Shown piece after piece: positions 42,601 to 45,600 of a stretch of 64,000 bases of DNA. Source of the DNA: Siphonodentalium dalli (lineage: Eukaryota; Mollusca; Scaphopoda; Gadilida; Siphonodentaliidae); the NCBI GenBank assembly GCA_032622095.1, contig CP136068.1:158667465-158731464 (forward strand), given 5' to 3'. Position 1 is the first letter of the stretch. Each line of letters opens with the position of its first letter. Both the position numbers and the translations under genes were made by a program. The notes under the pieces were generated by a model. That model did not search any database. It was given only the letters and a program-made list of their open reading frames with translations, and was not told the DNA's origin.

Positions 42601-45600
42601 ACAATATTCATCATTTGGGAACTTTAGTCTGAGTCGATGTCTCCCATAGCAGCTGTGGCCATGCAGAATGAGGTCCCAAGAGGGTGAATTTGTTGATGAT
42701 AGCCTTGCTTTGCATGATAGCATCACTAAATTCACCCTCTGGGGACCTCATTCTGTAAAGACAGGCACCCTAAACACAGGCTCGATTATAGCAGACAGAC
42801 TCCAACACATACTCAATGAAAGCAGTAATTCCTTTAACCTTTGCCTTCTTATTAATTTATTACATATTTTGTATCTGTGTAAAACATTTTGTGTCCTGGA
42901 CTAGTATTTTTTTTATCTTGATTTTTTTCACTGTAGAATGAGAACTATTTAACCTACTGATCTGACCGCGGGATGTGAATTATAAAAGCAAGCCTGAAAT
43001 ACGGTAGTGTGTATGTTATTTGCAGCATGAATTCTCCAGAGGGTGAATTTAGTGATGCTGCCCCACATTGTGGCTTAACATCACGAAATTCACCCCCTGG
43101 AGACCTCATCTTGCTTAAGCCTCATCTTCTTGGAAGTACAGTATCTATAGTCTCAAAGTAACATTATATATACTTTTTCCCCTTCTGTTCAGTTTCTATA
43201 TCACCTAATTTGCAGAAGATAAAATGCATAATGGAGATGACTAATGGGTGAACTACAACTGGGGAACTACAATCTCATCCTAGGTCTTCCATAGCAGTTG
43301 AAGCCTAAGCAGAATGGGGTTCCCAGAGAGTGAATTTCATGACTCTAGCATTCTGGGGGCCTCATTCTGCAAATGGCAGACGCACTAATTCAAGGCTTGT
43401 ATAAAAGCATCAGATAAATCTGAATTTGAGAAACTGTGTACATAATAAAATTATGGCTGTATTTATACACTTGGTCATGATACCATACAAATCACAATAC
43501 ATGATCAACGATACCAAAGCCAAAAATCTTACAGAACCTGGCTTTTGTTTACATAACAGTGTACGAACTTGACAATAACATACTATTTACGCGATATTAA
43601 GGATTGGTTTAAGAAAAATGGTGAATATTGTGATGTACACCCATTGGGGACCTCGATTATGCAATGTGTTGTCTGCCAATTTGGGGATATATAGAAACTA
43701 AACTAAAAAGAAATAGAATCTACCGGTACATGTATATGAAGAAGTTTCTATAGAAATTCTATAATAAAGAAACTATATTTTAAAGGTACTCAATCCGTAA
43801 AGAGGGTCCCCATCTCAACAGATTCTAACAACAACAATCCGAGCAGAGGGTCCTATATTACTATTTCTTTGGCTTTGGGGGTAAAAAATATTTGATTCGA
43901 GTCGAGGAACCCATCAAACAAAGCTCAGAGTTATTAGATATTGATTTTTGAAATTTGTTATGTTCTCGAGATGAGTACTAATAACTGCCGTAATCTGCTC
44001 TGGATGAGTGGATGTGTACTCCAAATCTATTCAAACAGACAAGGATGGATAACTCTAAAATCAAGTGGTAATTTTAACGCAATTTTGACTGAGTTCTGGG
44101 TCAGATAGTATTCCCGATAATGAAAAATAATAGATTTCTAAAATCGATATCTAACAAATCTGAGCTTTGATGGGTGACTTCCTCGACTCGAATCAAATAT
44201 TTTTGACCCCCGAAGCCATTGAAATAGTAATTGAGAGGAGTTTTATCGGATTGAGTACCTTTAATATTCTTTTTGTTTATGGCAGTTTTAACTGGTGGGG
44301 ACTATTTTCACAGCATACCCTGCGAAGGCATCCATGCCTTTAAACAATCTCAAGAACTGTATGTATTAACATTTCCTTTACAGAAAGACGAGGTGTTTTA
44401 GAATTGTATGTATTAACCTTTCCTTTACAGAAAGACGAGGTGTTTTAGAATTGTATGTATTAACCTTTCCTTTACAGAAAGACGAGGTGTTTTAGAATTG
44501 TATGTATTAACCTTTCCTTTACAGAAAGACGAGGTGTTTTAGAATTGTATGTATTAACCTTTCCTTTACAGAAAGACGAGGTGTTTTAGAATTGTATGTA
44601 TTAACCTTTCCTTTACAGAAAGACGAGGTGTTTTAGAATTGTATGTATTAACCTTCCTTTACAGAAAGACGAGGTGTTTTAGAATTGTATGTATTAACCT
44701 TTCCTTTACAGAAAGACGAGGTGTTTTAGAATTGTATGTATTAACCTTTCCTTTACAGAAAGACGAGGTGTTTTTGAACTTGGTCCTAGAGTATGTTCCG
44801 GAAACAGTCTACAGGGTGGCACGACACTACAGCAAATCAAAACAAACTATACCTATCCTCTATATTAAGGTAAACCATACCTATCCTCTATATTAACTAC
44901 TCTCTATACAGGGTCCGCGCTAGATTGAAATTTACTTTTGCCAAATAATTTGCCAAATGAAAATATTTTTTGCCAAATTATTTTAGCAATTGCCAAAGGG
45001 GTCGTCCCGTTTTGCAGACACCTATTGTTTTCGGTAGGTTAGGGTAGAGGTGTGAATAATCCTCTTAATGACTACTTAGGCCCTTCCTAGTTGGTTTGAT
45101 TGGATTCGTTTTTTTCTGCCCTTTTGATTATGGGAAATAACGGAGGTTTGGGTTGCATTTATAACTGTTAATTAGTTATGGATAATATAAAATGCATGCA
45201 AATATTATAACACAAAAACATGAGGTACAAACATTAACGAATTAGAAACAATGACAACAACATGCTCAGTGACCGCATAACTTGGCCATTTCATTCAGGA
45301 AATCTACTTCGTCTATTTCGCCTGCCAAGTACACTCTCTTGAATTTTCCAAGGGACGATACTTTCTTTTCTGTGGGTTCACTTTGCCACCCGCACTTGTT
45401 CGGCAGGAGTCCATAAAGCAGGGGAACCATTATACTGTCGTCGAACACGTGGACTGAATATATTTGAAGAAATATGTCGGGAGGTTTCTCGAATGTACCA
45501 TCGGCGTAGAAACGATCAGCATCGGCAAGGAACCTAAGGTTGCTGTCTGTTGCGATGATCAATATCTTGTCACTTCCACCATCGGATGCAAAAAGGAAGT

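Follow-up and report, generated by a model that had tools for sequence, protein, structure and literature searches.

A tandem array of nine acceptor-bearing units at exon 4 of the GSK3 gene of the scaphopod Siphonodentalium dalli

Repeats and competing 3' splice sites

Minisatellites, or VNTRs, are built of near-identical units of 10-100 bp arranged head to tail. The repeat that we describe here at the GSK3 gene is of this kind, with 9.1 copies of a 47-bp period, 98% matches and an outermost unit that is the most different, but its unit holds a whole 3' splice site together with the start of an exon, and every copy is therefore a competing acceptor. In the engineered duplications of 3' splice sites of Reed and Maniatis (1986), as cited in PMC9225289 and PMC5389562, identical acceptors likewise stand in cis behind one upstream donor with a short decoy piece of exon, whereas the GSK3 array is natural, has nine copies instead of two and is flanked on each side by an intron of more than 5 kb. 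Alternative 3' splice sites, including those of the NAGNAG type, also involve competing AGs at one intron end, and acceptor-like sites of comparable strength do stand together before GSK3 exon 4. Unlike NAGNAG sites, however, these are 46-47 nt apart and each comes with a branch-like motif and a pyrimidine tract of its own, so that the choice among them would fall at the first step and not at the second. With poison exons the array has in common that, if a decoy were used, a stop would arise early, ahead of a later exon junction, although the GSK3 decoys are upstream extensions of exon 4 and not a cassette exon. Lastly, mutually exclusive exons resemble it in that exon 4 sequence is duplicated, and a whole second exon 4 is found in a Mactra antiquata record, but the array copies the exon edge only, and a single complete exon 4 was found among the 100 assembly matches listed of 278 candidates.

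With respect to the choice among acceptors, the published results compared here, in the portions of the sources that we cite, come from built constructs and from human events with two sites (PMC5389562, PMC9225289). The classical rule for short introns is that the upstream acceptor is favoured, and for exons flanked by introns of more than about 250 nt the sites closest to each other across the exon have been proposed as the preferred ones. In this long-intron class the upstream preference of 3' sites is much reduced and not reversed, the pooled 3' site data still lean upstream, and the minigene proof of exon-centred pairing in the cited portion concerns 5' sites (PMC9225289). In vitro, splicing of duplicated beta-globin 3' sites had very low efficiency and took place at the distal site only, and concurrent occupation of two 3' sites inhibited splicing (PMC5389562). 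No natural acceptor ladder was found in the literature on duplicated or repeat-borne acceptors at the level of the titles and abstract beginnings listed, a scope outside which subscription papers mostly fall.

The GSK3 gene and the array at exon 4

The window, that is, the whole stretch of 64,000 nucleotides analysed here, sits on a 190-Mb contig of the 2.23-Gb, nine-contig assembly. Translation and a protein search of the assembly identified in it a GSK3 gene with an intact coding region:

6522-60244, plus strand: GSK3 coding region, nine exons, 418 residues
6522-6603, 34296-34486 and 39276-39359, plus strand: exons 1-3, with the exon 3 donor after 39359
44353-44778, plus strand: tandem array of nine 47-bp units (one of 46), reaching from the last part of intron 3 into exon 4 by 16-20 nt
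44759-44869, plus strand: exon 4, 111 nt, phase 0, with the ninth unit providing the real acceptor
50349-50479, 55362-55468, 56646-56839, 57415-57601 and 60075-60244, plus strand: exons 5-9

These coordinates give 5,399 nt for intron 3 and 5,479 nt for intron 4, and they agree with the exon 3 end proposed in the initial annotation. Seven of the first eight homologues, among 120 listed (7,990 scored), belong to named molluscs and are 77-88% identical. When the protein was searched against the whole 2.23-Gb assembly, neither a second GSK3 locus nor a retrocopy appeared among the 100 matches listed of 278 candidates, in which all matches other than these nine exons were at most 49% identical, and a second or retrocopied gene was thus rejected. 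Since the gene is intact and no second copy was found, splicing to 44759 must work often enough. Intron 1 also holds a fragment of a reverse-transcriptase RNase H domain (27792-28205, minus strand).

The array itself was recovered by TRF with a score of 824, and the acceptor-to-acceptor steps before exon 4 are 47, 47, 47, 47, 47, 46, 47 and 47 nt, which bears out the earlier description of a 47-bp unit repeated nine times across the boundary of intron 3 and exon 4. The positions that directly follow the nine AGs (44384, 44431, 44478, 44525, 44572, 44619, 44665, 44712 and 44759) were likewise as first annotated. TATTAAC, a pyrimidine tract and ACAG are found in every unit, together with 16 nt that correspond to the start of exon 4. 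The nine AGs had been described as having the same pyrimidine tract and TATTAAC, to which small corrections apply: the 44665 unit has one T fewer in its pyrimidine tract, and unit 1 differs from the other units at two bases (GAACTG for GAATTG and AACATTT for AACCTTT). Among themselves, units 2-9 have no substitutions and one 1-bp deletion, that of the 44665 unit, and this absence of substitutions points to a young array. Chance is no issue given nine near-identical units. A dispersed repeat was ruled out, as 44340-44880, used as a DNA query against the assembly, matched its own locus and nothing else. A hidden RNA structure was also rejected: the array did not fold more stably than its shuffled versions (z = +0.86), 82 out of 100 of which folded equally well or better.

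Tandem repeats are a classic cause of assembly error, and the animal could in principle have fewer units than the assembly shows. The assembly is nevertheless chromosome-scale, its 2.23 Gb lying in 9 contigs, the array spans no more than 426 bp, units 1 and 7 have private differences and comparable duplications are present elsewhere, all of which makes an artefact very improbable.

Between exons 3 and 5, tblastn found the real exon 4 as the only complete one, together with the exon starts of the decoys and some matches that were short and weak, and there was no complete second exon 4 among the same 100 assembly matches listed of 278. A relic second exon 4, of the type seen in some bivalve records, was accordingly rejected. 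In those records, Mactra antiquata (P0001) has two whole exon 4 copies in a row, and Ruditapes (P0026) and Dreissena (P0030) have a second exon 4 type (ENLY), so that, judging from these sequences, exon 4 is probably alternative in some bivalves. Heterodont bivalves thus seem to carry an alternative exon 4, which is a hint that splicing may be regulated at this exon in molluscs.

The other end of the exon is also duplicated:

44844-44896, plus strand: last 25 nt of exon 4 copied into intron 4 (44844-44868 versus 44872-44896, 96% identical)

Another, incomplete copy of the exon 4 end lies near 46784-46821. In addition, intron 4 carries a transposon-like insertion at 44909-46783, whose short inverted ends (CAGGGT..GCGCT) were recognised by eye and which has, on the minus strand, a frame with a FLYWCH zinc finger (45642-46001); this insertion interrupts a tandem duplication of the end of exon 4 that is older than itself.

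Strength and products of the decoy acceptors

Use of any of the eight upstream sites would add intron sequence to the transcript:

44384-44758, plus strand: stretch retained in mRNA if a decoy is used (eight decoy sites)

Translation agreed with the earlier claim that only the last site leads into the real exon, and thereby to the full-length kinase, whereas all eight decoys read GEKKDEVF followed by a stop, through GTG TTT TAG, and give a product of 124 residues. The TTTTAG that contains this stop is the copy junction, where exonic GTGTTTT is joined to intronic AGAACTG, which suggests that the stop was copied along with the unit and did not have eight separate origins. Nonsense-mediated decay is expected where the distance from a stop to the last exon junction downstream exceeds about 55 nt. 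All eight decoy stops lie farther away than this, 140-468 nt upstream of the exon 4/5 junction, and decay of the corresponding transcripts would therefore normally be expected.

We scored the sites with matrices built from acceptors of the same genome. With 32 acceptors (8 from GSK3, 24 from chaperonin genes) and leave-one-out scoring, the real exon 4 acceptor ranked 7th of 32. With a matrix of 28 acceptors, from which the four with duplications were omitted, seven decoys scored 12.0-13.0 and the real site at 44759 scored 12.0, while decoy 44665 reached 7.7. Seven of the eight decoys thus score at least as high as the real site, and the earlier statement that splicing has to skip eight equal sites is correct for these seven but not for 44665. 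Outside the array, none of the 255 AGs between 39400 and 44340 matched the score of the real site, the best one scoring 11.3.

Such strong decoys, all leading to an early stop, speak in favour of a regulated poison-acceptor ladder, in which splicing factors or repeat number would set the GSK3 level through nonsense-mediated decay, and the second exon 4 type in some bivalve records would fit with it. However, the common stop came with the copied unit and did not evolve eight times, the near-identity of the units reflects youth and not conservation, and like duplications are found at exon 7 of GSK3, where the decoy acceptor would give an in-frame insertion instead of a stop, and in a chaperonin gene that is unrelated to GSK3. 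For these reasons we consider such a ladder quite unlikely, and it is just as unlikely that unit copy number determines what fraction of GSK3 transcripts goes to decay; were the ladder real, it would provide heritable, fast-mutating variation in GSK3 dose.

Each decoy could alternatively be read as a 9-nt microexon, AAAGACGAG, encoding an in-frame KDE and followed by a donor at GAG/GTGTTT. In all units AAAGACGAG is indeed followed by GTGTTT, and 9 nt keep the frame. Against this, GTGTTT is a poor donor by consensus, the intron between adjacent units would be 38 nt long, and KDEV occurs twice only in P0001 among the 120 homologues listed, there as part of a whole second exon, so that we regard this reading as extremely improbable.

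A further possibility is an unregulated brake, in which many U2AF/U2 sites occupied together would slow the splicing of exon 4 and either lower GSK3 mRNA or cause skipping of the exon. This would be in line with the inhibition reported in vitro for concurrently occupied 3' sites, in the part of that work cited here (PMC5389562), and with the length of exon 4, as skipping of its 111 nt keeps the frame and is predicted to give a product of 381 residues without part of the kinase domain. Selection would be expected to act against a strong brake on a single-copy gene that is conserved, though, and we find the brake unlikely.

Exon-edge duplications and the origin of the array

Exon 4 is not the only place where an exon edge is duplicated. 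In GSK3 itself, both edges of exon 7 are affected:

56475-56663, plus strand: 84-bp unit, 2.2 copies, across the exon 7 acceptor (TRF)
56831-57100, plus strand: tandem copies across the exon 7 donor, with the real donor after 56839

The decoy acceptor of exon 7 with first base 56562 scores like the real site at 56646 and would add 28 in-frame residues, and a further candidate with first base 56478 is without a pyrimidine tract. The decoy donors after 56923, 57007 and 57020 each lead to a stop. In a chaperonin gene (L084, G000:C2:20476425-20476943), an acceptor and its exon start are duplicated with an offset of 55 bp (47 nt at 95.7%), and, read in the exon's frame, the upstream copy of the acceptor runs into a stop. 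Furthermore, a second chaperonin locus (L089, G000:C4:24397314-24397766) shows a duplicated acceptor at an offset of 83-85 bp, with 90% and 79% identity over short pieces, and its decoy acceptor is still intact, scoring 4.0 versus 3.4 for the real site. This one looks like an older duplication than the recent one of L084; it is duplicated by a looser reading only and stands outside the counts given below.

To place these cases against the background, we applied a uniform test, defined as the presence of a direct duplication spanning a given point. It was positive for 2 of 8 acceptors and 1 of 8 donors of GSK3, a sample that is biased because the gene was chosen for its exon 4, and for 1 of 24 chaperonin acceptors, while random points gave 72/1500 in the window and 41/1500 in the flanks of other loci. 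Four further chaperonin acceptors, examined by a self-match search in place of the uniform test, had no self-match of 14 nt or more. Duplicated chaperonin acceptors thus amount to 1 of the 28 sampled, with a second, perhaps older, case, which is close to the 3-5% of random points. These 28 were taken from 53 hits, and those omitted comprise two hits that are long and single-frame, as well as near-identical second copies, and further hits, mostly weaker. Tandem arrays make up 10.2% of the window and contain 3 of the 16 GSK3 exon edges against 1.5 expected (P = 0.21, circular shift), and we rejected a clustering of arrays at these edges.

No exon-edge duplication was found in 50 further loci (30 myosin and 20 kinase), which is a weak test, since the profile matches frequently end before the exon edge is reached, many of the kinase hits consist of one open frame and some myosin hits cross stops. 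Its positive control detected the acceptors of exons 4 and 7, missed both donor-side duplications and also gave a 21-nt, 90% match inside exon 5. Separately, we observed a tandem array of near-identical single-frame kinase genes at G000:C2:149.8-150.6 Mb (L002-L031), which accounts for more than 80 of the 135 kinase matches; testis-specific kinase 6 is the best solved relative of these genes, followed closely by SIK3 and MARK. On these small samples, exon edges are neither clearly enriched in duplications nor clearly avoided by them. Short tandem duplications are common here, exon edges included, and the exon 4 array is unusual in degree.

The array is probably a young, essentially neutral minisatellite across the boundary of intron 3 and exon 4, tolerated by exon definition. 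Of the two alternatives first offered for it, whose anatomy and options were rightly drawn, neutral expansion is better supported than the regulated ladder, because tandem duplications at exon edges are seen again in GSK3 and also in a gene unrelated to it, with a frequency near that of the background. The first event would have been a short tandem duplication of a segment that began in the intron, before AGAACTG, and finished in the exon, after GTGTTTT; it would have taken in a complete 3' splice site along with 16 nt of exon, and later expansion would have brought the copies to nine. All copies except the last would thereby have been severed from the remainder of the exon and would run into the stop at the copy junction. 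We infer that exon 4 is recognised across the exon in this animal, its own donor and exon sequence favouring the nearest acceptor, 44759. The initial annotation had appealed to a proximal rule, and in its exon-centred form this favours the real site, whereas the classical, intron-centred form would favour the first decoy, as both are set out in the cited portion of PMC9225289. The array would be tolerated because both flanking introns exceed 5 kb and so fall in the class for which, in the same portion, the upstream-acceptor preference is weakened (PMC9225289). As only the last copy of any acceptor duplication reaches the full exon, the exon-proximal site must win. Some leak into the decoys, mostly into the last one, would be expected and would be cleared by nonsense-mediated decay. 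On the other side, nine sites are an extreme number for a costless feature, the exon-edge samples are small, the myosin and kinase loci had no such duplication, and the pooled 3' data lean upstream in the portion of PMC9225289 used here.

A natural case of nine acceptors with identical exon starts is a good test of exon definition. Moreover, the case suggests that this genome does not strongly purge short tandem duplications that cross exon edges, a point of relevance to the origin of alternative splice sites.
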